From: a virus
Strand: one strand, 5' to 3'
IMG/VR virus record: IMGVR_UViG_3300009184_004198
Location: 1 to 27,679 of that record
DNA length: 27,679 nucleotides
Both the position numbers and the translations under genes were made by a program. This document shows, one piece after another, positions 1,202 through 19,522 of this stretch (the first letter of the stretch is position 1; each line of letters starts with the position of its first letter). Under the pieces are notes generated by a model, which searched no databases, had not been told where the DNA came from, and saw nothing but the letters and a program-made list of their open reading frames with translations.

Positions 1202-1279
1202 GCCCCCTTGGCGGAATTGGCAGACGCACATCGCTTAGAACGATGTCTTAGGGTGAGAGTTCGAGTCTCTCAGGGGGTA
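1202..1279 (+). tRNA. tRNA-Leu(UAG)
   Basis: A complete class II tRNA: acceptor GCCCCCT/AGGGGGT, D arm GCGGAATTGGCAGACGC, anticodon arm CATCG-CTTAGAA-CGATG with anticodon TAG, a long variable arm, T arm GAGAG-TTCGAGT-CTCTC and discriminator A. CCA is not encoded. The first acceptor pair is G1-U72. It is the only fully canonical tRNA of the 1-1280 block and shares its D arm with the abnormal tRNA-like elements, which could be derived from a Leu tRNA. Confidence 0.93.
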
Positions 1280-1310
1280 CAACTATTATAATCTTATTTG
1301 TATCTATATT

Positions 1311-1323: not shown

Positions 1324-2901
1324 ATGAGAACAATCCTATTTTTCCTATTATTAATACCCAATATTGTCCTTTCACAATGTGTTGGGGTCCAATCTTTTAC
1401 ATTAACTCCATCACCTACTAATGGTACTTACGAACCTGGAACTGTTGTAACTATGTGTTACACGATGAACGGTTGGAACGGAACTAACTTTGGTTCCAAT
1501 TGGATTGAGGGGTTTGGATTAACTTTGGGACCGGGATGGGTATCACATAGTCCTATTTCAGGCCCTGATGATTGTGGTGGGGCAGTTCCACCTCAACAAT
1601 GGTTATGGTCTGAAAGTGTAACAAATAATACGGGAACATTAACTGTTGGACCGGGTTATTTCTATGAGGGACCTCAAGGAACTATTGATGGAAACCCTGG
1701 TAATGATTGGGGGGACTTTGGTATTGATTGTTTATGGTCTTTTTGTGTTCAATTACAAGTTACCGATGAGTGTGACCCTTTATCTTTATTGATAGAAGTC
1801 ACACCATATGCTGACGGAACTATGGGTAGTTGGGGAACTGAATCTTGTTTTGACGCTCCGTTTCAGGTTTTCAATGGAACTGTTCTTGGGGGAGATGTGG
1901 TGACTTCACCCATTGATGTCCCAATGGATACGGTATGTGTTGGACTTACTGATACATACTCTGTTGTAAACACTGTTGGTTCAACATATGATTGGACTAT
2001 TTCTGGTGGAGGTACTATGACTGAAAACGGAACAAATACTATTGATGTTGAATGGGGTGGGGTACCGGGTAATTATGTTATATCGGTACAAGAAACAACT
2101 GTTGACGGATGTATTGGTAACATTATTGATACAACGATAACTGTTGTAGATACTTTGATTACTTTTGGACAAGACAATATTGGTATTTGTTTGGAAGAAA
2201 CCGTTCAACTATCTGCAAGTCCTTCAGGTGGATTTTGGAATGGGGAAAACTTGGTTGGTAATGTTTTCACTGGATTTAATTCAGGAACATACCACCCATT
2301 ATATTTTGTTAACATATATGGATGTCCTGTTGTTGATTCCGTTGAGATTTATGTGAGACCAAAGTTTGAAGCCCCTGAAATATTTGCTCAATCAAACTTT
2401 ATTGATTTTTGTATTGACCCTTATAATCATACTTATTTGGCTCCTGATAGTGTTGGTATAGAATATACTTGGCACGTTGATGGTGTTTTACAACCTGATA
2501 CTGACTTTGAATTAAATGTTCTTTGGCCTGACACGACTATGGACCATACCATTACTATATATGGAACTGACACTTTGGGTTGTGAGAGTGAGTTAAATGC
2601 GATTACCATTAGAACAAACACTTGTTATAGGTTATATGTTCCCAATTCGTTCACACCAAATAATGATGGGTTTAACGATGTGTTTAAGATTGCGGGTATG
2701 TCAGTTTATGAACCTAATATGAAAATTTTTAATAGAGATGGTATGATGGTTTATAATATTAAATCATTAAGTCAAACTTGGAATGGCGATGATGGTAGTG
2801 GATACTATTGTCAGACAGGTGTTTATAATTGGATAATGACATACAGAGACGATAGAAATATTGGACACGTAGAAAAAGGTCAAGTTATTTTGATTCGTTA
2901 A
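1324..2901 (+). CDS. Secreted protein with a T9SS type B C-terminal sorting domain
   Basis: About 525 residues. The N-terminus MRTILFFLLLIPNIVLSQ is a signal peptide with a Bacteroidetes-style cleavage before Gln; the upstream in-frame TTG at 1309 is rejected because ATG 1324 gives a clean signal peptide. The middle has Ig/PKD-like beta modules rich in Gly, Thr and Asn, with VCVGLTDTYSV and TYDWTISGGG typical of gliding-motility-associated repeats. The last 85 or so residues (YVPNSFTPNNDGFNDVF, then KIFNRDG and W-N-G-D, ending in GQVILIR) fit the CHU_C/gliding-motility-associated C-terminal domain that directs export by the host type IX system. A cell-surface or released role during infection is inferred; adhesin or exclusion protein are options. 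Preceded by the ATATTTAT motif. Confidence 0.85.
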   Translation: MRTILFFLLLIPNIVLSQCVGVQSFTLTPSPTNGTYEPGTVVTMCYTMNGWNGTNFGSNWIEGFGLTLGPGWVSHSPISGPDDCGGAVPPQQWLWSESVTNNTGTLTVGPGYFYEGPQGTIDGNPGNDWGDFGIDCLWSFCVQLQVTDECDPLSLLIEVTPYADGTMGSWGTESCFDAPFQVFNGTVLGGDVVTSPIDVPMDTVCVGLTDTYSVVNTVGSTYDWTISGGGTMTENGTNTIDVEWGGVPGNYVISVQETTVDGCIGNIIDTTITVVDTLITFGQDNIGICLEETVQLSASPSGGFWNGENLVGNVFTGFNSGTYHPLYFVNIYGCPVVDSVEIYVRPKFEAPEIFAQSNFIDFCIDPYNHTYLAPDSVGIEYTWHVDGVLQPDTDFELNVLWPDTTMDHTITIYGTDTLGCESELNAITIRTNTCYRLYVPNSFTPNNDGFNDVFKIAGMSVYEPNMKIFNRDGMMVYNIKSLSQTWNGDDGSGYYCQTGVYNWIMTYRDDRNIGHVEKGQVILIR

Positions 2902-3374: not shown

Positions 3375-5114
3375 TTATGTTATATCTGAATTAACATTTT
3401 TACTAATATTATAAATAGTATTTTGATTTATGTTGTTAATCAAAAACTCACCTGTATTACCTAATCGATAGAACGTATTAAAGTACTTGTAGAAAGTATC
3501 CATTCTATTTTTTAAATCTCCACCCATATCTGATTTAATAAGACTTCTTGGATATGAATCAGCGTCTGTAGGGTCTTTTCTAAGAAGTTCTTCATATCCT
3601 TCAGACTTCATAGTTATTTTGAAAAATTGAGTGAGTTCTGATTCAAGGTATGTTTTAAATGATTTTTTTAGGTTATTTTTTTCATTGTCGTATTTAGAAG
3701 CGGTCATTTTAGTATAATATTCATTAAATTTTGTTGCAATATCTTTAATTTTATTAAGTAGTGTTCTAGTCCTCTCAAGTGATAATCCTTTAGTATCTAA
3801 AGTAGATGTATCCCCACTTAAACCTAAATTAGACATTAAACCTTCTTTGTATGTAATTAATTCACCTCTTGCCTGTCTGATATTACCACCTGAAGGACCA
3901 ATTCTATCGTTAATTGTTTTTATTTTTTTACCACACTTATCTAAAGTACATAATAATCCTTGACTACCTTTAGGACTAAATGGTGCAACTATTACATTAT
4001 TATTACCATCATATACTGTTATTTTTACAATATCATCATGAGCGTCAGATGTTACACATTCAAACCAAATATTAATAAATGGTAATGTAGGTGATACTTC
4101 TAATGATTGAGATAATATTTTTTCTTTATCAGATGATGGTATTTCAAAATCATCCCATCTTGCCGCATCTTTAAACCCACTAATTAACTCGTCTTTAGTT
4201 TTTCCCTTTACATTAACTCCATATTTTTGTGTTAAAATACCATAACCTGGGTTTAATAACTGTGGTGGGAAAACAGGGTTACTACTAACATTAGGTATTC
4301 CTCGACTACTTGTTCCGGTATTTAAATTAGCGGTCATACCTCCTTCCATATTATTTAATCTTGTATCATTTGCAAATACAAAAAATTCAGCATTTTGACA
4401 ATTATGTTTTTTAATTTCAAATCTAACTCTTATTGTACTGGCACATTCTTCAAGTTTTATTGTAGGTGTCTGTGTTGTAACAGGAACTGATGGTGTTGGT
4501 GTTTCTGTTGGTAGTTCAGTTATAGTAATTGACATATCCAAATACTGTTCTTGTTGATAAGCGTTAAAGTAATCTTTATAAGTAGTTTCTTTACCGGCTT
4601 TATATCTATCCTTACAAGCACCTCTTTGTTGAGCATCTGTTGAACCGGCAGGACAGAACGGAGTCCCAACCCAAGCGGTATCACCAATTTTTGGGTCAGC
4701 AATTGTGTATTTAGGTAAACTTGGTAAAACACCTGATTCAACTAATCCACCTAATTTTTCATTTAAGTAATCAGTTATTGTTACTCCTCTTTGTATTGCC
4801 AATTGTTTTGGAGCTAACGCAGTTCCTGCTTTACCTGTTATAACTCCTTCATTATCAGTATTAGGTATTTGACTCTCACCCGAACTTATTGCGACATTAA
4901 CTACAAATCTTTCACCAGGTCTGTCCAATAGGTATTTTTTTATGTTTTCAATTATTGGGTCTAAAAAAGGTGCAGCATAAGTTCTACCATAGTAACCTGG
5001 ATTGAAAGTGACTCTTTGAGATTGTGTGTAAGGTTCAACTGCCTCAGTTATCAAACCATATAACTTTCTAATATGTGTTTTCTCTCCTTCTGAAATTAAA
5101 AATTTTTGGCCCAT
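3375..5114 (-). CDS. Large protein with N-terminal LISE tag and partial OmpA-like region
   Basis: 579 residues. It begins MGQKFLISEGEKTHIRKLYG, closely resembling the start of the minus-strand protein at 10533-11795 and, more loosely, two small proteins. Residues about 66-123 (RFVVNVAISSGES, then LAIQRGVTITDYLNEKLG) look like the middle of an OmpA/MotB-type peptidoglycan-binding fold. A Thr/Pro-rich linker follows (about 195-220, ELPTETPTPSVPV), then a domain with scattered Cys residues and a Lys/Glu-rich, probably helical C-terminus. The gene runs against its neighbours, with the ATATTTAT motif at 5121-5128 just before its start. A virion or wall-contacting role is inferred; the C-terminal half is unrecognised. 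Confidence 0.7.
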   Translation of the reverse strand: MGQKFLISEGEKTHIRKLYGLITEAVEPYTQSQRVTFNPGYYGRTYAAPFLDPIIENIKKYLLDRPGERFVVNVAISSGESQIPNTDNEGVITGKAGTALAPKQLAIQRGVTITDYLNEKLGGLVESGVLPSLPKYTIADPKIGDTAWVGTPFCPAGSTDAQQRGACKDRYKAGKETTYKDYFNAYQQEQYLDMSITITELPTETPTPSVPVTTQTPTIKLEECASTIRVRFEIKKHNCQNAEFFVFANDTRLNNMEGGMTANLNTGTSSRGIPNVSSNPVFPPQLLNPGYGILTQKYGVNVKGKTKDELISGFKDAARWDDFEIPSSDKEKILSQSLEVSPTLPFINIWFECVTSDAHDDIVKITVYDGNNNVIVAPFSPKGSQGLLCTLDKCGKKIKTINDRIGPSGGNIRQARGELITYKEGLMSNLGLSGDTSTLDTKGLSLERTRTLLNKIKDIATKFNEYYTKMTASKYDNEKNNLKKSFKTYLESELTQFFKITMKSEGYEELLRKDPTDADSYPRSLIKSDMGGDLKNRMDTFYKYFNTFYRLGNTGEFLINNINQNTIYNISKNVNSDIT

Positions 5115-5151: not shown

Positions 5152-5664
5152 ATGAATATCTTTTTTTTGGATTTGGACATTGAAAAATGCGCAAAGTATC
5201 ATTGTGACAAGCATGTTGTTAAGATGATATTGGAAACTGCTCAGTTATTATGTGGAGCACATCACATGACCCACCAAGTACCGACCAAGTACCCACCAAG
5301 TACCGACCAAGTACCGTACAAGTTATCACATAAGAATCATCCTTGTGCAATATGGACACGTGAGTCACTGTCTAACTATTTGTATCTATGTGAACTTGGA
5401 TTGGAGTTATGTAAAGAATATACTTACAGATATGGAAAACGTCATAAGTCTCAGGATGTTATTGAATGGTGTGTCACAAATAAGTTAAACATTTGTGACA
5501 AAGGTTTTACTGAACCACCCAAGGCAATGCCTGACGAGTATAAAGTAAATGACGTTGTTGAATCATACAGAAATTATTATCGTGGAGCCAAGTCAGGTTT
5601 TGCGGTATGGAAAAATAGAGAAACACCAAGTTGGTATAAAACAGAAAAATATGTCGTGTTGTAA
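5152..5664 (+). CDS. Conserved phage protein of the MN-FFLD...DKHVVKMI family
   Basis: 170 residues. The N-terminus MNIFFLDLDIEKCAKYHCDK, followed by HVVKMILETAQLL, and the later HPCAIW, YLCELGLELCKEYT, PPKAMPDEY and a C-terminal RNYYRGAK...W motif match a protein family common in large and marine phages that I know only as uncharacterised. Conserved Asp, His, Cys and Trp residues suggest an enzyme, perhaps metal dependent, but I cannot name an activity. A run of 11-bp repeats adds a Pro/Thr/Tyr-rich stretch at about residues 42-55. The gene has a host-type promoter 4 nt before the ATG and overlaps the following gene by 14 nt. Confidence 0.75.
   Translation: MNIFFLDLDIEKCAKYHCDKHVVKMILETAQLLCGAHHMTHQVPTKYPPSTDQVPYKLSHKNHPCAIWTRESLSNYLYLCELGLELCKEYTYRYGKRHKSQDVIEWCVTNKLNICDKGFTEPPKAMPDEYKVNDVVESYRNYYRGAKSGFAVWKNRETPSWYKTEKYVVL
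5274..5317 (+). repeat. Four tandem copies of an 11-bp repeat inside a gene
   Basis: The unit CCAAGTACCGA occurs four times in succession, with one changed base in copy 2 and one in copy 4. Three extra units add 33 bp, which keeps the reading frame, although each unit is read in a different frame. The encoded stretch is HQVPTKYPPSTDQVPYK. This looks like a recent slippage expansion. Confidence 0.85.
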
Positions 5665-5812
5665 AGAATGTCCGTATAAGGTTGATAACAACCACAATAG
5701 AAAGTTAAGAGAATTTACTGAAAGAACAGGAAGGAAACATACTTGTCATATGGTTAATCCAAAACTATGGGATACAAGTAATGAAAAAGAAATGTGTAAA
5801 AATTTTGACTAA
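5651..5812 (+). CDS. Small Cys-rich, probable zinc-binding phage protein
   Basis: 53 residues starting MSCCKECPYKV, with later THRK-type basic residues, CHMVNPKLWD and MCKNFD. The CC-x2-C and downstream C-H and C spacing suggests one zinc site. Similar short proteins starting with CKECPW/Y and continuing NKHN...F...HNCHM are frequent in phages; function unknown. The ATG at 5651 overlaps the preceding gene by 14 nt, so translation is probably coupled. A longer frame from 5549 would overlap the preceding gene heavily and is rejected. Confidence 0.72.
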   Translation: MSCCKECPYKVDNNHNRKLREFTERTGRKHTCHMVNPKLWDTSNEKEMCKNFD

Positions 5813-5835
5813 TCAGTATTTATTTTGTATCTTTG
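5805..5835 (+). promoter_or_regulatory. Bacteroidetes-type promoter for the second RNA block
   Basis: TTG (5805-5807), exactly 20 nt, then TATCTTTG (5828-5835). Transcription would start about 10 nt before the tRNA-like element at 5853. It overlaps the stop region of the preceding gene. Confidence 0.65.
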
Positions 5836-5852
5836 TAAAAGAATCGAGGATT

Positions 5853-5957
5853 ACTCAGGTGGCGGAAGTGATACTAATGCATTAGTTCGATGGAAAGACG
5901 CTAGGGTAACCTACCCGAGTCAGAAATGACATGAAGGTTCAAGTCCTTCTCTGAGTA
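5853..5957 (+). tRNA. tRNA-like element 4 with palindromic D-loop insertion and abnormal anticodon arm
   Basis: Acceptor ACTCAGG/TCTGAGT with discriminator A5957 and T arm GAAGG-TTCAAGT-CCTTC. The D arm GCGGAA...GACGC is enlarged by about 20 nt containing the perfect palindrome ACTAATGCATTAGT. The anticodon region can fold as GGG-TAACCTA-CCC with an A at the position of the invariant U33, or as TAGG-GTAA-CCTA closed by a GNRA tetraloop; neither is a normal decoding arm. The variable arm is GTCA-GAAA-TGAC, another GNRA hairpin. It has its own host-type promoter and is close in sequence to elements 2 and 3. Isotype undetermined; Leu-derived by its D arm. Confidence 0.55.
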
Positions 5958-6051
5958 CTAACCGTTACTGAATAAGTAACAACCCAACCAAGGGCAATAC
6001 GGGCTCATACCTGTGGAGCAAGGTGACGGTCAGGAAAGACTGACAATATAT
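5958..6051 (+). ncRNA. Structured spacer between tRNA-like element 4 and tRNA-Met
   Basis: ACCGT near 5961 and ACGGT near 6027 can close a domain with GTTAC-TGAATAA-GTAAC, CCC-AACCAA-GGG and ACCT...AGGT around the string GTGGAGCA; a separate hairpin GTCAG-GAAAGA-CTGAC follows. It resembles the spacers of the first RNA block in having GGAGCA in a hairpin loop. Function unknown. Confidence 0.35.
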
Positions 6052-6126
6052 TGTGGGATGGAGAAGATGGTCAATCTCGTGACTCTCATAAGGTCAAGGT
6101 CGCAGGTTCGAATCCTGCTCCCGCAA
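6052..6126 (+). tRNA. tRNA with CAU anticodon (Met or Ile2)
   Basis: Acceptor TGTGGGA/TCCCGCA, D arm GAGA...TCTC, anticodon arm TGACT-CTCATAA-GGTCA with anticodon CAT, T arm GCAGG-TTCGAAT-CCTGC, discriminator A. The 1-72 pair is T-A, so it lacks the unpaired 1-72 of initiator tRNA. Elongator Met or lysidine-modified Ile cannot be told apart here. Confidence 0.9.
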
Positions 6127-6128
6127 CT

Positions 6129-6242
6129 AAAAGATAGAAGTAAGTTTCACCTGTTGCAGGCGACATAAAGTAAGATTCACAACTTGACTGGTCGTTACTT
6201 CTTATAGTGGAAAATGTGGACACTATAAGCTATCTTTTTTTA
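6129..6242 (+). ncRNA. Compact structured ncRNA ending in a T-run
   Basis: About 110 nt between tRNA-Met and tRNA-Glu. An outer helix AAAGATAG (6130-6137) with CTATCTTT (6230-6237) encloses two arms: AGAAGTAA (6136-6143) with TTACTTCT (6195-6202), and TATAGTG/CACTATA (6203-6227). The first arm contains CCTG-TTG-CAGG, CGAC/GTCG and AAGT/ACTT helices. Two near-repeats, GTAAG-TTTCAC and GTAAG-ATTCAC, lie inside. A run of T follows the outer helix, so the element could also end transcription, but tRNAs continue 4 nt later. No known RNA family is recognised. Confidence 0.5.
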
Positions 6243-6245
6243 TTT

Positions 6246-6320
6246 GTCGCGTTAGATTAGCTGGTTTAAATCGTCGCCCTTTCACGGCGAAGACCATCGG
6301 TTCGAATCCGATACGCGATA
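6246..6320 (+). tRNA. tRNA-Glu(UUC)
   Basis: Acceptor GTCGCGT/ACGCGAT (first pair G-U), D arm GATT...AATC, anticodon arm TCGCC-CTTTCAC-GGCGA with anticodon TTC, T arm ATCGG-TTCGAAT-CCGAT, discriminator A. CCA is not encoded. Confidence 0.92.
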
Positions 6321-6326
6321 CTACAT

Positions 6327-6408
6327 TGTGGTGTTGAGCAATTGGTTGGCTCGCCTGTCTGTAAAACAGGTTCCTATGGACTTGGCGGTTCGAGTCCGTC
6401 CACCACAA
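6327..6408 (+). tRNA. tRNA-Tyr(GUA)
   Basis: Acceptor TGTGGTG/CACCACA, D arm GAGC...GCTC, anticodon arm CCTGT-CTGTAAA-ACAGG with anticodon GTA, a 13-nt variable arm as usual for bacterial tRNA-Tyr, T arm GGCGG-TTCGAGT-CCGTC, discriminator A. Confidence 0.92.
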
Positions 6409-6670
6409 CAAACAAACCTTACAGAAGACGGATTAGCACCGTTGAAAGAAACCTTGGCTTCACCGTGGAGTAGCTACCACAACCGAAGTTTAAATGCCCC
6501 AAGGTAAGCTGTGATGGACCCTGCTCTGTGTGGCCACACAACAGGTGAACAGTAAATTATGTTCAGTCAAATCTACAACTACGGTGAACGTAGATGGTTT
6601 GTTAAAATTAAATAACCAACTTTAAAAAGGGCCCTTCCTGAAATATTGGCTCGCTGAGCCCGAGTTTGTT
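6409..6670 (+). ncRNA. Long structured RNA between tRNA-Tyr and a strong terminator
   Basis: About 260 nt without a credible CDS. Helices include GTGG-AGTAGCTA-CCAC, the palindrome TGTGTGGCCACACA (which can close as TGTGT-GGCC-ACACA), TGAACA-GTAAATTA-TGTTCA, ATCTAC...GTAGAT and GGCTC-GCT-GAGCC. It is immediately followed by an intrinsic terminator, consistent with a defined 3' end processed from the tRNA transcript. It does not show the conserved regions of RNase P RNA or tmRNA that I would expect. Confidence 0.45.
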
Positions 6671-6704
6671 AAACCCCATTCCAAAAGAGTGGGGTTTTTT
6701 ATTT
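6671..6704 (+). terminator. Intrinsic terminator of the second RNA block
   Basis: AACCCCA (6672-6678) pairs with TGGGGTT (6690-6696) over an 11-nt loop, followed by a run of T. Confidence 0.85.
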
Positions 6705-6710
6705 ATAATT

Positions 6711-6720
6711 GTATTTATTA
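6711..6720 (+). promoter_or_regulatory. Candidate late promoter, TATTTATT variant
   Basis: GTATTTATTA ends 4 nt before the ATG at 6725; same orientation and distance as the other motif copies. Confidence 0.45.
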
Positions 6721-6724
6721 TAGA

Positions 6725-7042
6725 ATGAGATATCTAATCACAGAATCACAAATAGAAAAGATAGTGTTTAAGTATCTTGACAATCAGGATTTTATTAATA
6801 TGGAATATGGGACATATGAATATTTTCTTAATTCAAAAGATGATAATTATGCTCAAATTAAATTTAATACAAGCAGCCGTTGGTGTACAATTGAAAGAAA
6901 ATTAATGTTTGAAATTGCTTCTTTCTTTTCTTTAGAATACCATGATGCGATGTCACTCATTGCTAGATGGGTTGAGAGAAAAATCGGATTAGAATTTAAT
7001 ACCATTGAGACCCAATCGGATATAATTGTGTATTATTTTTAA
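6725..7042 (+). CDS. 105-residue protein with N-terminal LITE tag
   Basis: The ATG at 6725 is chosen because it gives MRYLITESQIEKIVFKYL, matching the N-terminal tag of the proteins at 3375-5114 and 10533-11795, and because it follows the late-type motif by 4 nt; the start at 6689 lies in the terminator. The remainder is mixed alpha/beta with TSSRWCTIERKLMFEIASFF and RWVERKIGLEF; no family is recognised. The tag and promoter suggest a late, perhaps virion-packaged protein (inference). Confidence 0.65.
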   Translation: MRYLITESQIEKIVFKYLDNQDFINMEYGTYEYFLNSKDDNYAQIKFNTSSRWCTIERKLMFEIASFFSLEYHDAMSLIARWVERKIGLEFNTIETQSDIIVYYF

Positions 7043-7064
7043 ATAATATTCACAACAAAACAAA

Positions 7065-7183
7065 TTACCTTATAGTTATTAATGAAACCTTGTTGCTGAG
7101 GTCCACCTGTTCTTTGAGACAGTTGAGTTGGAGAAATACCAACGAAGTGGGGTTCAATAAACATAAACAATAAAATAAGGTAA
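7065..7183 (+). promoter_or_regulatory. Structured 5' leader of the gene at 7188
   Basis: TTACCTTAT (7065-7073) pairs perfectly with ATAAGGTAA (7175-7183), which ends 4 nt before the ATG. Inside, TTATT/AATAA and ACC/GGT extend the closing helix, CCAC/GTGG closes a junction, and CTGT...ACAG and GTTGG-AGAAATA-CCAAC form two arms. This architecture would hide the ribosome entry region and looks like a regulatory leader. Part of it (7079-7094) is also exactly complementary to the 3' UTR. Confidence 0.5.
7079..7094 (+). repeat. 16-bp inverted repeat, left copy (leader)
   Basis: TTAATGAAACCTTGTT is the exact reverse complement of 8036-8051. The pair flanks the gene at 7188-8027 and both arms lie in its transcript. 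Confidence 0.85.
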
Positions 7184-7187
7184 AAAA

Positions 7188-8027
7188 ATGTATTACACAG
7201 AACTCAAGAAGTTTCCGTCGGCTCATATTACGACAGGGAAACAAAGATTAAAACAAAACGGCTCAAACGTTTATCTTAAAGATGGGGAAGAATTTGAAGT
7301 AGAAATCTTCAACCCAAAATCAAATTCAGTTTTAGCGAAAATAAAAATCAATGGAAATTACCTATCAGGTGGTGGAATTATTATCCGACCTGGTCAAAGG
7401 GTATTCTTGGAAAGATATTTGAACGAAGCAAGGAAGTTCAAATTTGAGGTGTATGAGGTTAACTCATCATCAAAGGAAGTCCAAGAAGCAATCAAAAACA
7501 ATGGTGAGGTTATCGTTGAATTTTATGATGAGAATGTTTATTTCAATAACCCAACTATAACGTTGGCAGGTACTAATAGTACTTGGACTGGTAGTATGAC
7601 CACTACAACCACAGGTAAGTATAGTATAACTTTGGGAGAGAATACTAAGTATTATAACACAAACGTTAATTTAACATCTAACAGTAATACCTTCGCAGGT
7701 GATTCAAATGCTTTTTATACAAACTATTCCGTACCTATCAATAGTGTTGATTATAACACATCACAAAACCTAAAAAAGTCTTTACAAACTGACAGGTTCA
7801 AAGAGACAGGTCGTGTTGAGAAGGGTGGTGACTCAAAACAGGAGTTCACATCTGTTAATATGGATTTCAATTCTTATCCATCATCATATTCAACTTGGAG
7901 ATTAATGCCAATGTCAGAGAAACCTGTTGAGGTGAAAGAGGTGAATGTTCTTTATTGTTCCAATTGTGGAAGTAAAAGAAAGAAAGACAAACATAAATTC
8001 TGTCCACACTGCGGAACAAAATTCTAA
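7188..8027 (+). CDS. Probable virion-surface protein with C-terminal zinc ribbon
   Basis: 279 residues. Residues about 30-90 (DGEEFEVEIFNPKSNSVLAK, then GGGIIIRPGQRVFLERYL) belong to a conserved beta-rich module that I recall from phages and giant viruses, of unknown exact function. A low-complexity Asn/Thr/Ser-rich region follows (about 125-225). The C-terminus is a zinc ribbon, C-x2-C-x13-C-x2-C (YCSNCGSK, FCPHCGTKF). Probably a structural or decoration protein. It is preceded by a structured leader, flanked by the 16-bp inverted repeat, and followed by a strong terminator. No late motif lies directly upstream, so it may be transcribed with the gene at 6725. Confidence 0.65.
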   Translation: MYYTELKKFPSAHITTGKQRLKQNGSNVYLKDGEEFEVEIFNPKSNSVLAKIKINGNYLSGGGIIIRPGQRVFLERYLNEARKFKFEVYEVNSSSKEVQEAIKNNGEVIVEFYDENVYFNNPTITLAGTNSTWTGSMTTTTTGKYSITLGENTKYYNTNVNLTSNSNTFAGDSNAFYTNYSVPINSVDYNTSQNLKKSLQTDRFKETGRVEKGGDSKQEFTSVNMDFNSYPSSYSTWRLMPMSEKPVEVKEVNVLYCSNCGSKRKKDKHKFCPHCGTKF

Positions 8028-8035
8028 AAATAAAT

Positions 8036-8051
8036 AACAAGGTTTCATTAA
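8036..8051 (+). repeat. 16-bp inverted repeat, right copy (3' UTR)
   Basis: AACAAGGTTTCATTAA lies 8 nt after the stop codon and directly abuts the terminator; exact reverse complement of 7079-7094. Confidence 0.85.
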
Positions 8052-8078
8052 GCCCCATCAATTGATGGGGTTTTTCTA
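8052..8078 (+). terminator. Intrinsic terminator
   Basis: CCCCATCA pairs with TGATGGGG, followed by TTTTT. Confidence 0.85.
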
Positions 8079-8085
8079 TTTGAAT

Positions 8086-8095
8086 GATATTTATA
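8086..8095 (+). promoter_or_regulatory. Candidate late promoter, ATATTTAT motif
   Basis: GATATTTATA, 14 nt before the ATG at 8110 and just after the preceding terminator, consistent with a new transcription unit for the two wall-active genes. Confidence 0.5.
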
Positions 8096-8109
8096 CATAA
8101 ACTAAAATT

Positions 8110-8706
8110 ATGTCATACACAAGAGAACAAGTGGAAACTGCTGTAAAATCAAAGGGATACGTTTGGTTTGAAGACACGGCTAACAAAGGTTACGATGTTA
8201 ACATCATTGGAATTAGAAACAGTGCAACTGGTCAAAAGGTTACAAATGCTTTTGATGATTATTTAACCATCTCTTACAAAGAGAATGGACAATGGAAGTT
8301 TCACATTTGGCCGGCAACCACTGACCCGGGTAAGAAGGGTGTGATGGAATACCACAACAAAGATGGTGTTGCTCGATTGGTTGAGGGACAATATCGTGGT
8401 TCACACATTATCAGATTACATCAGGGTAAATATGAAGCGTTAGGTCAGGATAAACCCGTTAAAGTTTATCGTGATGCCAACAAGGATATGACTTATGATG
8501 AGAACAAAATCACTGAAGGTGTTTATGGTATTAACATTCACAAGGCAGGTGCTGATTCAACGTATGTTGAGAATTGGTCTGAAGGATGTCAGGTATTCAA
8601 GAAGTCTGCGGACTTTGAAGAGTTTATGAAGATTTGTCGTAAATCAAAAGATATTCATGGGAATAGATTTACATATACATTAATTGAAACAAAAGATATA
8701 GTATGA
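8110..8706 (+). CDS. Probable YkuD/L,D-transpeptidase-like cell-wall enzyme
   Basis: 198 residues, no signal peptide. The C-terminal part contains GVYGINIHKAG, about ten residues, then NWSEGCQVF; the His and the S-x-G-C spacing match the H...S-x-G-C catalytic motif of YkuD-fold enzymes, in which the Cys is the nucleophile. The earlier part (KFHIWPATTDPG, ARLVEGQYRG) is compatible with the sheet of this fold. Such proteins in phages act on host peptidoglycan, as hydrolase or transpeptidase. It overlaps the next gene by 4 nt (ATGA), and that gene encodes a papain-like protein, so the two may work together on the wall. Confidence 0.6.
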   Translation: MSYTREQVETAVKSKGYVWFEDTANKGYDVNIIGIRNSATGQKVTNAFDDYLTISYKENGQWKFHIWPATTDPGKKGVMEYHNKDGVARLVEGQYRGSHIIRLHQGKYEALGQDKPVKVYRDANKDMTYDENKITEGVYGINIHKAGADSTYVENWSEGCQVFKKSADFEEFMKICRKSKDIHGNRFTYTLIETKDIV

Positions 8707-9218
8707 TAGATTTAAGTCAGTTTAAAACAGGTGACGTTCTACATTGTCGTGGACGTAAGTTAATTAGTAAATTAATTCGTTGGGCCACCAAATCTCAAAT
8801 TAACCACACCGCATTATTCATTTGGATATGGGATGAACTTTATGTTATTGACGCTCAAGATAATGGTGTTAATGTTAAACCGTTTGATGCATGGGTTAAC
8901 GAATATCATTATGATTTTATTGTAATGAGAAGACCTAGAGTAATTGCTGAAAAGAAAATAGCAACAAAGGCTATGAGTAAAGTTGGATTAACTGCCTATG
9001 ACTTTGAGGGATTGTTAATTAAACAACCTATTGAATTACTAACTGGTAAGTGGAACAAGAAAAAAGAAAAACACGAAGAAGACAAAATGTATTGTTCTGA
9101 ATTTGTATCTTGGGTGTATGGTTTAGACGATTCTTATAGAATGTCACCAAAAGATTTCTTGGACTATTGTTTGGAAAATAGTTGGGATGAGATTTACAAT
9201 ACTGGGATTAAAATATGA
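8703..9218 (+). CDS. Permuted papain-like (YiiX/NlpC-P60-type) hydrolase
   Basis: 171 residues. TGDVLHCRGRKLISKLIRWA followed by NHTALFIW supplies the conserved GD and the His of the circularly permuted NlpC/P60 superfamily, and MYCSEFVSWVYG supplies the Cys. Lipid- or peptidoglycan-directed amidase or peptidase activity is the family expectation. The start codon overlaps the stop of the preceding gene. The 3' end overlaps the convergent gene by 11 nt. Confidence 0.7.
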   Translation: MIDLSQFKTGDVLHCRGRKLISKLIRWATKSQINHTALFIWIWDELYVIDAQDNGVNVKPFDAWVNEYHYDFIVMRRPRVIAEKKIATKAMSKVGLTAYDFEGLLIKQPIELLTGKWNKKKEKHEEDKMYCSEFVSWVYGLDDSYRMSPKDFLDYCLENSWDEIYNTGIKI

Positions 9219-9879
9219 ATTTGTGATTAAAGACTACATAAACATCTGAATCGTAGTCTATTAAACGGGAACGACTGTGAAAAAAGGATATAACTTCCTC
9301 AAACTCAAGACCATCCCTGAAAGAGTCATATAACTCATCTTCATTTTCGTATAATTTAAAAAAATCATTTTTTATATCAGATGACTCAAATCCATCTACA
9401 CTTAAAAAAGTAATTTTAACTATATCATTTACTATTATTTCAGTTTCATAATTTGAAACACCAGTAAACTTTGCTGAATAATTAATATCAATTATTTCAT
9501 CATTAAATGTTCTAAATTTTATACTACTTTCTTTATTATTTTCATATATATCTAAAACTATTTTAGTATCCTCATTGTTTAAATAAACTTCATTTTTATC
9601 TAAATCAGTATAAAAATTAATATGAGACATTAATATTTTAAATGTTTCATAATTGACACTAGAATTTACAAATTTAGAAAAGTTATAAACAAGTTCTTCT
9701 ATTGAGCCAATTTGATTTATCCTAGTTGTACTAACATCAGCAATATTATCGGTATATATATTAAGTTTTTCAAAATTGTTATAAGGTTCTACCATATACT
9801 TGATACCATCTATTACTATAGAACCTTTTGGGAAGTTAGATTTATAAAACAGACTTAACAATTTTTTATTTAGAGACAT
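9208..9879 (-). CDS. Unknown protein, 223 residues
   Basis: Starts MSLNKKLLSLFYKSNFPKG and is acidic, Asn- and Asp-rich and predicted alpha/beta, with no motif I recognise. It has a minus-strand late-type motif (9885-9892) 5 nt before the ATG. It converges on the wall-enzyme pair, overlapping by 11 nt. Like the other minus-strand genes here it may be a late virion-associated gene; the tag of the other minus-strand genes is absent. Confidence 0.6.
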   Translation of the reverse strand: MSLNKKLLSLFYKSNFPKGSIVIDGIKYMVEPYNNFEKLNIYTDNIADVSTTRINQIGSIEELVYNFSKFVNSSVNYETFKILMSHINFYTDLDKNEVYLNNEDTKIVLDIYENNKESSIKFRTFNDEIIDINYSAKFTGVSNYETEIIVNDIVKITFLSVDGFESSDIKNDFFKLYENEDELYDSFRDGLEFEEVISFFHSRSRLIDYDSDVYVVFNHKFIF

Positions 9880-10532: not shown

Positions 10533-11795
10533 TTACTTTGTTTTATAGGTTTTACTAAATGTAGGTAAAACTACTGTATATCTACGGTTTGGTAATGTTT
10601 CGTCTTTAGTTGCATTTGGCCACTTCTTACCCATTGCAAATTCTTCAGTTTCACCAACACCAACTGGTTTAAATGTTATCCCTGAATTTACACTAAAAAA
10701 GTCAGGTAACAATTTTTTAAGTTCATTAACTACATTCTGAGCTCTTGCCTGTGATAGACACTGATTGTATGCCTTTCTTGTTTGATTTGGCTTATTACAT
10801 GCGGTATATCCACCTGTCATGATTGCGTCAGATTTCTCATCAATAGATGCGTAAGCATTAACAGTAATCGTTTGACCTTTTAAACTATTTAAATAGTCTT
10901 GATATAGTTTAGGTGAACTTGTTTTTTTATCTGTAAATTGTTTTGCGAAGTTGTTTAACAATTTAATACCCTCACCTGATAAATCTGCACTATCATAAGC
11001 GAATGGGTCACTTATAGCATCCCCAATTTGTAATGGTACAAACTCTTCTGTTTCATTAGTTGTTGGTATATTTTTCTCTGTTGAGTATGCTGGTCTATAT
11101 GGGTTTCCTGAATTTAAAGTTACCGCATAAGTTTTTTCGAAATCTTTAAATTCAATATTTTTATTAATCAAATCAACAAACCATTTTATTTCATTAAATT
11201 GTTTTTTATTTGAAACTACGTACATATCCTTGAACCCAATTTCAGGTATTGTAACTATGGTTTTAGGACTTTTACCTTGAATTACCTGTCCTTCTGTCTG
11301 TTTGGACATTCCAGGATATATTCCTATAAACTCTGGAGTTTTATTAACACTAATTCCTACTGCAAATGCAATTGCTCTAGTTTCGTTAGGTTTTATCTCT
11401 GATTGGTCGGCTCTTACATAGGTAAGTATTGACTTTAAAAGTTTTTCTTTAGTTGGTATTTCTCCTTCAGCAATTTTCCCATCCGCATCATAAATCAAGT
11501 CTTTACCTAAAACTAACATGTCATCATTCAAGAATACCCCTTTCGTTACATCAAATTTTAAATTAGATAAATCACCATTGTAAGAAACGATAGGATTATA
11601 ATCTCTATCTATAAATATAATGTTTTGTCCCTGAACAACTACACTCCAACCTGCAAATCTATAATTTTCATATGGTTCTTGAGAAGTATTGGTTGATGTG
11701 GTGGTAGTTAAATCTTGTTCAATCATTAAACCTTTTTTTGAGTATAAATCCAATATTTGTTTTTTCTCTTCTTCGGTAATTAAAAATCTTTTCAT
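10533..11795 (-). CDS. OmpA-like protein with N-terminal LITE tag
   Basis: 420 residues starting MKRFLITEEEKKQILDLYSK, the clearest form of the tag shared with 3375-5114. The C-terminal 160 or so residues form an OmpA/MotB-type domain: SADLSGEGIKLLNNFAKQF, ITVNAYASIDEKSDA, CLSQARAQNVVNELKKLLPD and TLPNRRYTVVLP. Such domains bind the diaminopimelate stem of peptidoglycan. No signal peptide is present, which argues for a virion or intracellular protein rather than an outer-membrane protein; a tail or injected protein that touches peptidoglycan is inferred. The late-type motif is 11 nt upstream. Confidence 0.7.
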   Translation of the reverse strand: MKRFLITEEEKKQILDLYSKKGLMIEQDLTTTTSTNTSQEPYENYRFAGWSVVVQGQNIIFIDRDYNPIVSYNGDLSNLKFDVTKGVFLNDDMLVLGKDLIYDADGKIAEGEIPTKEKLLKSILTYVRADQSEIKPNETRAIAFAVGISVNKTPEFIGIYPGMSKQTEGQVIQGKSPKTIVTIPEIGFKDMYVVSNKKQFNEIKWFVDLINKNIEFKDFEKTYAVTLNSGNPYRPAYSTEKNIPTTNETEEFVPLQIGDAISDPFAYDSADLSGEGIKLLNNFAKQFTDKKTSSPKLYQDYLNSLKGQTITVNAYASIDEKSDAIMTGGYTACNKPNQTRKAYNQCLSQARAQNVVNELKKLLPDFFSVNSGITFKPVGVGETEEFAMGKKWPNATKDETLPNRRYTVVLPTFSKTYKTK

Positions 11796-13185: not shown

Positions 13186-13563
13186 ATGAAAAAGATATTT
13201 TTATTTATAACTATTTTATTTACTTCTTGTGCTAGTTTTGAGAATCTAACTGATGATAGACATAGACCTGAAGACGATGAATGTTATTGGATTCCTGGTG
13301 AGGAATTCTATATAACAAAAAGACCTGAGTCGTCAGAAGAATATGGTAATCGTAATGTAGTTATACCTCCATCTCTTAGTCGAGACTTCTCACCAACTTA
13401 TTATCGTCCGTATTACAGTAACTATCCTGTGTATCATAATACACCACAACCAATATATAATCCTCCAAGACCTCAGACCCAACAACAAGGACCTGTGAAC
13501 AAACCCACAAATAACAGAAGTGGTGGGACAACTCCAAAAGTGACTCATATTAAAAGACCCTAA
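13186..13563 (+). CDS. Proline-rich small lipoprotein
   Basis: 125 residues from the ATG at 13186; the longer frame from 13093 overlaps the preceding gene and is rejected because the 13186 start yields the lipoprotein signal MKKIFLFITILFTSC with lipobox FTSC. The mature protein has an acidic segment (DDRHRPEDDECYWIPGEEF), then a Tyr/Pro/Gln/Asn-rich tail (YYRPYYSNYPVYHN, PPRPQTQQQGP) ending in basic residues. It would be anchored in the envelope with a flexible tail. TATATTTA lies 11 nt upstream and is close to the host -7 consensus. Function unknown. Confidence 0.72.
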   Translation: MKKIFLFITILFTSCASFENLTDDRHRPEDDECYWIPGEEFYITKRPESSEEYGNRNVVIPPSLSRDFSPTYYRPYYSNYPVYHNTPQPIYNPPRPQTQQQGPVNKPTNNRSGGTTPKVTHIKRP

Positions 13564-13565
13564 GG

Positions 13566-13575
13566 AATATTTATA
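13566..13575 (+). promoter_or_regulatory. Candidate late promoter, ATATTTAT motif
   Basis: AATATTTATA, 6 nt before the ATG at 13582 and directly after the preceding stop. Confidence 0.5.
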
Positions 13576-13581
13576 TTACAT

Positions 13582-14148
13582 ATGAAACCTGTTGATAAAT
13601 TTGTCATTGAATATTTAAGACGTGAATATAACATACCACACGATGTGGTTATTGACATTAAAAGTGACCCATCCTCTTCTGTTAAAACTATGAACTTTAA
13701 ATTTGATTTAACTAAAGTCGATGTGAATAGCGGGGAATCTGAAAATTGGTATAGAGATTTTTTTTTACAACCCAAAAATCTGAAAGGTATGGGTGCCTTT
13801 TTATATAATTGGGGAAAAAGAATTGAAGGTAAAATTCAAGATTTGTTTAAAATTACCAAAATAAAACCTGAATACTATAGAGTAATCAACGAACCTGTTA
13901 ATTATGGATTTTTGGAAAAAGTTGGTAATAAAATTGAGGAAGCAATTAAAAAAACCGAGTTCCCGAATTTAACCATTGAGTTTTCAAAAGATAGTGAACC
14001 TGATATTAAATTATTATTTAGGGGTTTTACAACAGAACAATTTGAAGATAAAGATGCATTTAAAGAATTTACAAGACAATTGAAAGACGTTCTTGGTAGT
14101 GAACTTGATTTATCACCTTACCAACTCGCATACACAAGAGGAAGATAA
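13582..14148 (+). CDS. Unknown protein, 188 residues
   Basis: Starts MKPVDKFVIEYLRREYNIPH. Mixed alpha/beta with many Lys, Glu and Phe; no signal peptide, membrane segment or recognised motif. A late-type motif precedes it. A host-type promoter for the next gene begins directly after its stop. Confidence 0.62.
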   Translation: MKPVDKFVIEYLRREYNIPHDVVIDIKSDPSSSVKTMNFKFDLTKVDVNSGESENWYRDFFLQPKNLKGMGAFLYNWGKRIEGKIQDLFKITKIKPEYYRVINEPVNYGFLEKVGNKIEEAIKKTEFPNLTIEFSKDSEPDIKLLFRGFTTEQFEDKDAFKEFTRQLKDVLGSELDLSPYQLAYTRGR

Positions 14149-14151
14149 TTC

Positions 14152-14182
14152 TTGATTTATCCATTTTTATTTATTATCTTTG
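14152..14182 (+). promoter_or_regulatory. Bacteroidetes-type promoter
   Basis: TTG (14152-14154), 20 nt, TATCTTTG (14175-14182), then 10 nt to the ATG at 14193. It probably also drives tRNA-Met and tRNA-Leu(UAA). Confidence 0.65.
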
Positions 14183-15479: not shown

Positions 15480-15884
15480 ATGAAATTTAACATTAAAAAT
15501 TCAAGAGAGGCTAGAGCCTTTAATATAATCTATGACTATATAGATGATTTAATAGGTGGTGAGCATAGGGTTGAATATAGTGACCCTGATGAAGACGGTG
15601 ACTTATATCATGGAGATAGGAGAAGTAGAAATACTACGACGATAAGTGTCTATCAAAATGATGGTGAATATAATTTAATTTTTAGAATTTATTTACCCAA
15701 TTATTGGAATAAAGGTGTTGATTTGATTGAACAATCACCAATTATTTCTTTTTATAAACCATACGTTAAAGAATTGAATAGAATGTTTGTTTCACTTTGG
15801 CATGACCCGTTTAGAATATGGTTTAAACACAATTTCCCTGAATTATCTGACATTCATATAAAAACTTTCGATAAACATTTCTAA
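15480..15884 (+). CDS. Unknown protein, 134 residues
   Basis: The ATG at 15480 (MKFNIKNSREARAFNIIYDY) is chosen because the longer frame from 15336 passes through the tRNA-Leu exon and a terminator. The protein has an acidic loop (SDPDEDGDLYHGD), a central strand pair (TTISVYQNDGEYNLIFRIYL) and a C-terminal KHNFPELSDIHIKTF. No family recognised. A perfect 10-bp stem terminator begins directly after the stop. Confidence 0.65.
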   Translation: MKFNIKNSREARAFNIIYDYIDDLIGGEHRVEYSDPDEDGDLYHGDRRSRNTTTISVYQNDGEYNLIFRIYLPNYWNKGVDLIEQSPIISFYKPYVKELNRMFVSLWHDPFRIWFKHNFPELSDIHIKTFDKHF

Positions 15885-15912
15885 TAAACTGACATTCTGT
15901 CAGTTTATTTAT
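15885..15912 (+). terminator. Intrinsic terminator
   Basis: TAAACTGACA-TTC-TGTCAGTTTA, a 10-bp stem beginning directly after the stop codon, followed by TTTATTTT. Confidence 0.75.
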
Positions 15913-15935
15913 TTTGGCACATTGTTTAATAATTG

Positions 15936-15953
15936 GGAGTCGGAGTTGACTCC
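15936..15953 (+). promoter_or_regulatory. Hairpin upstream of dnaK
   Basis: GGAGTC-GGAGTT-GACTCC, 41 nt before the dnaK ATG. It is not followed by T, so a terminator is unlikely. A TTATTTATATAA element (15962-15973) lies between it and the gene and may be a divergent copy of the late motif. It could be an operator or a leader hairpin; it does not match CIRCE. Confidence 0.35.
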
Positions 15954-15994
15954 ATAAAAAATTATTTATATAATTAAACAAATTAAATTAAACT

Positions 15995-17854
15995 ATGGGA
16001 AAAATTATAGGAATTGACTTAGGTACAACAAATTCGTGTGTTGCGGTCATGGAAGGCTCGGAGCCTGTTGTAATTACAAACAGTGAAGGAAAAAGAACCA
16101 CCCCTTCAATTGTGGCATTTGCAAATGGTGGTGAAAGAAAGATTGGTGACCCCGCTAAAAGACAGGCAGTAACTAATCCTGAGAAAACAATATCATCTAT
16201 TAAGCGTTTTATGGGAACTGGCTTTGATGAAAGTAAAAGTGAAGTTAATCGTGTTCCTTACAAAGTGGTAAATAGTAAAGGTACACCACGTGTTAAGATT
16301 GATGATAAAGAGTACTCACCACAAGAATTATCTGCGATGGTTCTTCAGAAGATGAAACAAACTGCTGAAGATTACTTGGGTAGTGAAGTGACTGAGGCAG
16401 TTATCACCGTACCTGCATACTTCAATGACGCTCAACGTCAAGCGACAAAGGAAGCTGGCGAGATTGCGGGATTAACAGTTAAACGTATTATTAATGAACC
16501 AACCGCTGCGGCACTTGCTTACGGATTGGACAAACAATCTAAAGATATGAAGATTGTTGTGTTTGACTGTGGTGGAGGGACTCACGACGTATCAGTGTTG
16601 GAACTTGGTGATGGAGTATTCGAAGTATTATCAACTGATGGTGACACTCACCTTGGTGGTGATGACTTTGACCAAGCGATTGTTGATTGGTTGGTGAAAG
16701 AATTCCAAGATGAGAATGGATTGGACTTGACTAAGGACCCAATGGCTCTTCAACGTTTACGTGAAGGAGCTGAGAAGGCTAAGATTGAATTGTCATCTTC
16801 ACCATCTACGGAAATTAACTTACCATATATTATGCCTGTTGACGGTGTCCCAAAACACTTGGTTCGTACTTTATCAAAATCAAAGTTTGAACAACTTGTT
16901 GACACTTTGGTTCAAAGAACAATTGAACCTTGTAAAAAGGCAATGACTAACGCAAATCTTACTGTTGGTGATATTGATGAAATCATTTTGGTTGGAGGTT
17001 CAACACGTATTCCGGCAATTCAGGAAGCGGTTAAGAAGTTCTTTGGTAAGGACCCATCAAAAGGTGTTAACCCTGATGAAGTTGTTGCGTTAGGAGCGGC
17101 AATTCAAGGTGGGGTACTGGCAGGTGATGTTAAGGATGTATTGTTGTTAGACGTTACACCACTATCACTTGGTATTGAAACAATGGGTGGAGTGTTCACA
17201 AAGTTGATTGATGCTAACACAACCATCCCAACCAAAAAGTCACAGGTATTCTCAACGGCAGTTGATAACCAACCATCTGTAGAGATTCACGTATTACAAG
17301 GTGAGAGAGCGATGGCGAAAGACAACAGAACCATTGGTCGTTTCCATTTGGATGGTCTTCCACCAGCAATGAGAGGTATTCCACAGATTGAGGTTACATT
17401 TGATATTGACGCTAATGGTATCATTAATGTATCGGCTCTTGACAAGGGAACCAACAAACAACAAAACATTCGTATTGAGGCGTCATCAGGACTTTCGAAA
17501 GAAGAAATTGAAAAGATGAAACAAGAAGCTGAGATGAATGCTGACGAGGATAAAAAAATGAAAGAGGAAGTTGAGACAATCAACACTGCTGACAATACAA
17601 TCTTCCAAGTTGAAAAGGCTTACAAAGACATTGAAGATAAATTAACTGAAGAGCAAAAGAACGATATTGATTCATCGTTGAATGATTTAAAAAATGCAAA
17701 ATCAGAAAGAAACATCGATTTGATTAAAGAGTCAATGGAAAAAGTTAATACAACTTTCCAAAAGATTTCTGAGGTCCTATACTCGAATTCTGGTCAGGAT
17801 AACCCTGATGTTGAAGTTTCTGATGTTGATTTTGAAGAAGTGAAATCAAACTAA
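15995..17854 (+). CDS. dnaK: Hsp70 chaperone DnaK
   Basis: 619 residues, close to full length. The ATPase domain has [70 protein letters not shown] and [13 protein letters not shown]; the substrate-binding domain has [17 protein letters not shown], the linker, and a helical lid; the C-terminus ends in an acidic tail ([14 protein letters not shown]) rather than the EEVD-like or Gly-rich tail of many homologues. The GGGTHD form and [10 protein letters not shown] are typical of flavobacterial DnaK as I recall, pointing to acquisition from a host. No DnaJ or GrpE gene is in the window, so host co-chaperones would be needed. It may assist virion assembly or replication under stress. Confidence 0.97.
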
Positions 17855-17878
17855 TTAATTTAAACTTCAAATTTACAA

Positions 17879-17908
17879 CCCTCATCTTTACAGATGAGGG
17901 TTTTTATT
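17879..17908 (+). terminator. Intrinsic terminator of dnaK
   Basis: CCCTCATCT-TTAC-AGATGAGGG followed by TTTTT. Confidence 0.9.
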
Positions 17909-17919
17909 TAGATTTAGAC

Positions 17920-18099
17920 ATGAATTTTATTTTAACATGTTTGTTTGTTACTTTTTTTAGTAGATTATTAAATTATTTGAGAAAGAAAATTGTTTTCGTT
18001 GACTATAAAACTGAAATGTTTGAATTATATACTGAGTTTATAGTATTTTTTATATTAATTCCTTTATTTAGTATGATTTTAGAATTAATTTTTAATTAA
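17920..18099 (+). CDS. Small membrane protein, 59 residues
   Basis: ATG-initiated frame after the dnaK terminator. The product has an N-terminal hydrophobic segment (MNFILTCLFVTFFSRLLNYL), a short charged middle (RKKIVFVDYKTEMFEL) and a second hydrophobic segment (FIVFFILIPLFSMILELIF). Two membrane helices with a short loop are predicted. AT-rich codon use is like the small genes further down. No promoter is obvious. Function unknown. Confidence 0.5.
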   Translation: MNFILTCLFVTFFSRLLNYLRKKIVFVDYKTEMFELYTEFIVFFILIPLFSMILELIFN

Positions 18100-18694: not shown

Positions 18695-19522
18695 ATGAAA
18701 GACACAAAAACTTACAATGAATTAGTCCAAAAAATGAGGACATTTTTCCAATCAAAAGGATTTAAAGAAGTTCCAACACAATCGAGATTATCAATCTTAG
18801 CCGCATGTGAAAATCCACACTCAATAACAACATTCAATTATCAGGGAGAGGTTTGGCCATTACCACAAACAGGACAAATGTGGTTAGAATACGAACTCCT
18901 TAAAAATCCTGAATGGAATGGTGTTTACTGTATATCAACATCCTACAGACAAGAAAAAGACCCAATCCCTGGCAGACATGAATTAATTTTCCCAATGTTT
19001 GAATTTGAATCAAAAGGTGGAATGAAAGAAATGATAAAACTTGAATCAGAACTTTTAGACTATTTAGGTTTTGATAAACCTATTGAGGTTAACTACGACG
19101 ATGTTTGTGAAGAATATGGTGGAGTTCCAATTTTAGAAAATGAACATGAGACAAGAATGTGGGAAGAAAAAGGGTCAGTAGTCTCTCTTCAAAATTTCCC
19201 TTATAGAACAAATCCATTTTGGAATATGAGAGAGAGTGAAAATAGAATATTCAATAAGGTTGACGTAATTCTTTACGGTCAAGAAACAATTGGTTCGGCA
19301 GAAAGAAGTTCTAATGTGGAAGAAATGAGAAATAACTTTTACACAATTGAGAATGGTGGATATTCTGCTAAGTTGTTTGAACTATTCGGAAAAGAAAGAG
19401 TTGAAAAAGAATTGGAAGAATTCTTATCACATGACTTCTTCCCACGTTTTGGTGGTGGAATCGGAATGACAAGACTTGCCAGAGCTTATCAGTTAATGAT
19501 GGAAGAAGTTGAGGCTTTTTAA
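18695..19522 (+). CDS. Stand-alone class II aminoacyl-tRNA-synthetase-like enzyme (Asp/Asn/Lys group)
   Basis: 275 residues comprising only a catalytic core. Motif 2 is ISTSYRQEKDPIPGRHELIF with FPMFEFE following (the Arg...H-E-x-x-x-F-E pattern), and motif 3 is GGGIGMTRLARAYQLM with the Arg that binds ATP. LPQTGQMWLEYELLKN matches the substrate-site block. There is no OB-fold anticodon-binding domain. Related stand-alone cores include AsnRS paralogues that act as asparagine synthetases and EpmA-type ligases that modify proteins, so amino-acid activation is probable but the acceptor is not known. It lies after a terminator, 38 nt upstream of the endolysin gene. Confidence 0.8.
   Translation: MKDTKTYNELVQKMRTFFQSKGFKEVPTQSRLSILAACENPHSITTFNYQGEVWPLPQTGQMWLEYELLKNPEWNGVYCISTSYRQEKDPIPGRHELIFPMFEFESKGGMKEMIKLESELLDYLGFDKPIEVNYDDVCEEYGGVPILENEHETRMWEEKGSVVSLQNFPYRTNPFWNMRESENRIFNKVDVILYGQETIGSAERSSNVEEMRNNFYTIENGGYSAKLFELFGKERVEKELEEFLSHDFFPRFGGGIGMTRLARAYQLMMEEVEAF

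Follow-up and report, generated by a model that had tools for sequence, protein, structure and literature searches.

A phage gene with a type B type IX secretion sorting domain represents the one-piece version of a conserved three-gene cassette bearing a C-terminal tag

We analysed a stretch of 27,679 nucleotides (hereafter the window, a 27.7 kb IMG/VR record), in which an open reading frame at positions 1324-2901 of the forward strand runs as a single open frame from an ATG at 1324 to a stop codon at 2899-2901 and encodes a protein of 525 aa (Table 1). The gene is flanked by tRNA-Leu and tRNA-Cys, and sits within a tRNA cluster. A first-pass annotation had judged the surroundings to be viral, and this was borne out by the presence of endolysin-like genes and other phage families on the record. 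The window has no structural genes, neither a terminase nor a tail sheath being matched, and may be a small fragment; the contig of a relative of 59% identity (L007) encodes both, with scores of 153 bits for the terminase and 107 bits for the tail sheath.

Table 1. Positions of the parts of the gene and of its neighbouring tRNA genes in the window
Feature	Position	Strand	Basis
tRNA-Leu(tag), just upstream of the gene	1202..1280	+	ARAGORN and Rfam
Predicted Sec signal peptide, aa 1-17 (MRTILFFLLLIPNIVLS, followed by Q)	1324..1374	+	Sequence reading; same shape across all relatives
N-terminal beta-sandwich domain, aa 18-185; corresponds to the separate gene 1 in split cassettes	1375..1878	+	Alignment; viral relatives
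Ig/PKD-like domain 2 (PF19408 at aa 203-257); equivalent to first half of ORF2	1888..2154	+	Pfam; structural alignment
Junction TSPID, aa 194-198; equivalent to the ..SPIxHN tag ending split gene 1	1903..1917	+	Comparison with split forms
Ig-like domain 3; equivalent to second half of ORF2	2149..2364	+	AlphaFold2 model; structural alignment
Ig-like domain 4; equivalent to N-terminal half of ORF3	2362..2622	+	Structural alignment
Second junction APEIF, aa 350-354; equivalent to tag ..SPIQHN ending ORF2	2371..2385	+	Comparison with split forms
Type B T9SS sorting domain (TIGR04131/CHU_C), aa 439-523; equivalent to C-terminal half of ORF3	2638..2892	+	Profile scores
tRNA-Cys(gca), just downstream of the gene; also downstream in the relatives L005 and L006	2933..3005	+	ARAGORN

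The same annotation had proposed a signal peptide and a C-terminal type B sorting domain of the type IX secretion system (T9SS); the latter was recovered by profile search, and the former is predicted. The N-terminus (MRTILFFLLLIPNIVLS followed by QC) is predicted to be a signal peptide from its shape, as judged by eye and by its conservation in relatives. At the extreme C-terminus, residues 439-523 of 525 match TIGR04131, the profile suggested for checking the assignment, at 41.2 bits (E 1.3e-10), above the curated cut-off of 35, and residues 439-512 match PF13585 (CHU_C) at 61.2 bits, against a cut-off of 27. The TIGR04131 scores of the relatives fall between 40 and 42 bits. Only the type B domain was matched in the window protein, with no match to the type A profiles TIGR04183 and PF18962. 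The signal-peptide shape and the sorting domain are both retained in relatives of 97, 72 and 59% identity, and dN/dS is 0.051 against L005, the relative of 97% identity, and 0.207 against L006, with the lowest values in the N-terminal domain. As both ends are conserved in relatives and dN/dS is low, the observation in the window is not due to chance, and the gene is a real, conserved phage gene under purifying selection. The sorting-domain scores, the viral contigs of the relatives and the purifying selection agree with the original reading of a probable phage gene for a T9SS cargo. That reading also placed the protein on or outside the infected cell, with possible effects on adhesion or receptor access, which is here an inference.

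Between the signal peptide and the type B domain, the protein consists of four Ig-like or beta-sandwich domains. The first has an adhesin/pilin-like fold in structure searches, with Z-scores of 8-9 that are middling and were left out as evidence of function. The PF19408 match in the second reaches 21.3 bits, below the cut-off of 25, and no Pfam match to a fimbrillin family domain was found in the window protein or in the cassette proteins scanned. An AlphaFold2 model of the fused protein forms a chain of beta domains (pLDDT 87, pTM 0.46), for which the best PDB matches are fragments of Aureispira GhpA (Z about 11).

Comparison with viral relatives identified the window gene as the one-piece, fused form of a conserved phage three-gene cassette. 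We confirmed 100 viral relatives of the N-terminal domain, and among the best 80 of these 100, which were kept, 18 loci encode a fused protein like that of the window and 62 a stand-alone gene 1. About 60 of the 80 loci encode three consecutive secreted proteins, namely a passenger, a two-domain linker and a carrier with the T9SS signal. Each begins with a predicted signal peptide, which is followed by the N-terminal domain in gene 1 (about 197 aa), by a PKD_6 and an Ig-like domain in ORF2, the linker (about 187 aa), and by an Ig-like domain and CHU_C in ORF3, the carrier (about 188 aa). The order gene 1-ORF2-ORF3 is found in nearly all loci with sufficient sequence, and the fused proteins of the window clade keep it within one chain; in a second fused group, GCTDPxACNYN-type repeats follow the N-terminal domain. 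One 322 kb phage carries both forms, fused and split.

The cassette is broadly distributed among uncultured viruses. A scan with ORF2 returned 125 relatives, 80 of which were kept, on contigs of up to 436 kb, and 25 of the contigs were new relative to the first locus set. Searching 395 Bacteroidota genomes, we found no linker at E 1e-25, against values of E 1e-69 to 1e-82 for the same alignment in cassette-bearing phages. No tagged cassette was present among isolated phages in a collection of 50,697 records. The sorting domain also had a match in MT839536, a 'Bacteriophage sp.' record of 4.2 kb, which was excluded as its other ORFs look bacterial (one UvrA-like, one transglycosylase-like). On whether homologues lie beside phage structural genes, a question raised by the first-pass annotation, we found 18 loci in which the cassette lies in a tail module, by tail tube and/or baseplate hub genes; at 17 of these, sheath and tail tube genes lie upstream, and a baseplate-hub-like gene follows where the contig extends far enough. 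At most other loci, including the window with its copy in the tRNA cluster, the cassette lies outside tail modules.

Gene 1 and ORF2 lack a sorting domain, and instead end in a tag of nine residues, P-x-L-[GS]-P-I-x-H-[N/D], immediately before the stop codon. Across 134 distinct tagged C-termini, the histidine is invariant (134/134) and is followed by asparagine in 127 and by aspartate in seven. Tags of gene 1 and other passengers favour G-P-I-[S/N], and those of linkers S-P-I-Q. HN endings occur in 119 of the 1336 ORFs of at least 100 aa in the first locus set, every one of them a gene 1 or ORF2 member; in the second locus set, a further HN ending, presumably a chance one, belongs to an antisense ORF of 97 aa. 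Six large contigs contain exactly two matches each to the tag pattern, contigs with fused forms only contain none, and the single match in W01 is not at a gene end. Nearly all tagged ORFs pass a test for a hydrophobic N-terminus (255/257, the other two being at the threshold), compared to 418 of 1772 other ORFs.

All four pairs of His and Asn codons are used in the HN-ending ORFs, indicating that the constraint acts on the peptide. We considered whether HN might be a by-product of overlapping start and stop signals, and rejected this, since every one of the four codon pairs is used and HN persists where 95-213 nt separate the stop codon from the next gene. No support was found for HN as an intein remnant. 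The stop codon itself is TAA in 118 of 120 tagged ORFs versus 80% of others, an excess that may merely reflect the relatedness of the sequences.

In the fused protein of the window, the positions equivalent to the two tags carry the junctions listed in Table 1, and the first, TSPID, is accompanied by neither a stop codon nor a new signal peptide; the related fused protein L025 has TSPISHV at this point. Single-domain structural alignments run over model residues 172-260 (domain 2), 259-330 (domain 3) and 330-416 (domain 4), so the tag-equivalent residues begin the next Ig domain, and at the second junction model residues of about 330-337 align as the beginning of an Ig domain. DSSP assigns only single-residue bridges, and no full strands, at both junctions of the fused model, and stand-alone gene 1, modelled separately, has an unstructured tail. 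The unstructured tail and the position of the junctions at the starts of Ig domains are compatible with, and no proof of, the hypothesis of donor-strand joining.

We additionally identified several contigs in which an unrelated secreted protein takes the place of gene 1 and keeps the same kind of tag. These exchanged passengers include ALK/LTK Gly-rich proteins (L198, L199 and L204), SprB-repeat proteins (L200-L203 and L223) and PKD or other proteins (L252, L254 and L260).

Other secreted genes were found in the vicinity of the cassettes and in the largest phages. Type A cargo genes (Por_Secre_tail) lie in or beside three split cassettes (L051, 8550-9758; L064, 2063-3307; L215, 2-3160), which suggests that these phages contain secretome islands. 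Two phage records of 635-642 kb encode four and three CHU_C proteins. Among the proteins of the 642 and 635 kb phages are two of 116 aa (L014, 1438-1788, reverse strand) and 126 aa (L015, 1363-1743), respectively, that comprise a signal peptide, a type B domain and hardly more; the gene in L015 adjoins rhomboid-like and phosphatase-like genes.

Bacteroidota also have the N-terminal domain, at most 48% identical, within long type B-like proteins. In a tree of N-terminal domains, made by a quick method and containing long branches, the viral sequences form one clade (SH-aLRT 99) apart from the Bacteroidota homologues, the nearest sequences to this clade being L101, from a Bacteroidia MAG, and L106.

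Considering these data together, we favour, with moderate confidence, the view that the window gene encodes a type B cargo in the fused form of the split cassette, that the split subunits are joined by donor strands, and that the signal of the carrier exports the chain. Donor-strand joining is likely because the residues equivalent to the tag open the next Ig domain of the fused chain. The signal peptide of the window protein would lead it to the periplasm, with predicted cleavage, and the C-terminal domain would then carry it through the SprA translocon of the host, with a host PorP/SprF-type shuttle as the candidate partner, for probable display on the surface of an infected Bacteroidota host. 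The surface chain would come from the phage; Sec, the T9SS translocon and the PorP/SprF-type shuttle would be host components. In the split form, the tag may act as a donor strand, joining the passenger to the linker and the linker to the carrier, after which one type B signal on the carrier would export the whole chain. The purpose would most likely be to remodel the host surface, either excluding superinfecting phages or changing adhesion. In flavobacteria, T9SS and gliding mutants are often resistant to phages. More tentatively, the sequence may constitute a modular export tag of large Bacteroidota phages, through which exchangeable passengers and the linker would each dock in turn onto the subunit that follows, allowing one carrier with a type B signal to export a chain assembled in trans via the host T9SS; the window gene would then be the one-piece variant.

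PorP/SprF-type shuttle genes commonly lie near genes for type B cargo and are not required there, and the type B signals of Flavobacterium johnsoniae require a matching shuttle. We found no match to the shuttle profile PF11751 in the window or in any phage searched; as a positive control, the profile gave 8-17 matches per genome in three Bacteroidota genomes, and a phage-encoded SprF partner was thus rejected. Orphan type B substrates are known that use a shuttle encoded elsewhere (PMC12618676).

Three other explanations may be weighed against export of a joined chain. The split proteins might remain unjoined, with gene 1 and ORF2 staying in the periplasm and ORF3 competing for the T9SS of the host or for its shuttle, which would jam the export of SprB and other host type B adhesins, blocking gliding and superinfection. 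ORF3 barely exceeds a type B signal, with about 170 aa in its mature form and no passenger; a minimal type B signal is reported to measure up to 235 aa (PMC12618676), and the 116 and 126 aa proteins of the 642 and 635 kb phages are smaller again. However, in the window clade the three parts are fused in 1-2-3 order and two of the three partners have the tag in common, both of which argue for a physical complex, and jamming has no need of exchangeable passengers; we consider this explanation unlikely.

Less probable still, the proteins might be tail or fibre components of the virion, with their signal-like ends reused for assembly or for binding to host surface proteins. Ig-like domains are common on virions, and the position of the cassette in the tail modules of 18 loci would fit a virion component as well as a surface chain. 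Against this, every part has a predicted signal peptide, which would remove it from the cytoplasm, the site of virion assembly; the window and most other loci are not in tail modules; and the sorting domain scores above curated cut-offs. Finally, recent capture of a host surface-protein gene with no role in the phage, for which the shared N-terminal domain of long Bacteroidota type B proteins might speak, is very improbable given the single old clade of viral copies, the dN/dS of 0.05, the split architecture and tag, which were seen only on viral contigs, and the presence of the gene family in more than 100 of these.

T9SS cargo in phages is as such already known, from the three type A cargo genes of Cryophage, for which hijacking of host secretion and superinfection exclusion were proposed (PMC7468147). 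Cryophage resembles the present phages in combining T9SS sorting domains with variable passengers, but has type A domains on single enzyme-like proteins, whereas we find type B domains on Ig-like chains, in fused and three-gene forms and with a tag. Some crAss-like phages, likewise of presumed Bacteroidetes hosts, have ORFs with T9SS sorting domains near head genes; these contain BACON repeats, and the available part of that report describes neither a three-part set nor a tag (PMC6949934). In structure searches, we recovered two proteins of uncultured Caudovirales phages (BFVD A0A6J5L8Z9 and A0A6J5NJX2) named 'Gliding motility-associated, C-terminal domain', which at 199 and 187 aa are about the size of ORF3; these names are automatic annotations, and describe neither the cassette nor the tag.

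Bacterial counterparts share individual features. SprB and orphan substrates of F. johnsoniae combine a signal peptide with a type B C-terminal domain, and the orphans, as here, have no adjacent shuttle gene; however, these are host genes, SprB is far longer, and signal and passenger lie on the same polypeptide (PMC9143113, PMC12618676). The grappling hook protein GhpA of Aureispira, the top structural match, is also a Bacteroidota protein of many Ig-like domains, although it is bacterial and thousands of residues long. Its alignments to the fused model (Z 10-11, rmsd 9-10, about 300 residues, 15-17% identity) are typical of multi-domain Ig chains, and the similarity, put at 15-18% identity, is probably one of common Ig-like folds. 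Donor-strand joining has been proposed for the Mfa1 and FimA fimbriae of Porphyromonas gingivalis, whose secreted subunits are thought to join by strand complementation (PMC4789730). Here, by contrast, no fimbrillin family was matched, a conserved C-terminal tag is the candidate donor, and the T9SS signal of one partner would provide for export.

We found no earlier description of the tag, and no paper on phage type B cargo or the split cassette, in the literature searched, a search with preprints and many subscription journals outside its scope; T9SS goes unmentioned in papers on jumbo phages and on Bacteroidetes bS21 phages. From the two published mentions of T9SS sorting domains in phages that we found, the record now extends to a widespread, conserved module on more than 100 uncultured viral contigs of up to 436 kb. 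Should the tag work as proposed, T9SS cargo can be divided among separate polypeptides, a split-cargo form of type IX secretion so far undescribed, and the tag would offer a short means of attaching proteins to a T9SS carrier and a direct test of the effects of large phages on the surface of gliding Bacteroidota. A signal peptide together with IxH[N/D] before the stop codon provides a signature for finding further passengers.

We noted several further features in the window and its relatives. Reading of the sequence identified a full-length DnaK-like gene (15995-17854) and, by appearance, a class II aminoacyl-tRNA-synthetase-like gene (18695-19522), both with PHROG matches of no assigned function. 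An N-terminal leader, KRFLITEEEKxxIxxLY, is common to several otherwise unlike proteins, encoded in the window at 3375-5114 and 10533-11795 (both reverse strand), 6689-7042 and 22750-23037, and in L038 at 13300-14178; by analogy, this might be a targeting leader, comparable for example to the capsid-targeting sequences of T4-like phages. Positions 1-1200 of the window contain pieces resembling tRNA halves, with 5' halves (GTCAGGTGGCGGAAT) at 302, 656 and 807, 3' halves (GGTTCAAATCCTGTTCTGACTAC) at about 31, 415 and 957, and long inserts between the halves, none of which were called by ARAGORN or Rfam. Many more such copies occur in L006 (about 5400-9700 and 15800-18000), and these pieces are possibly interrupted or decaying tRNA genes.
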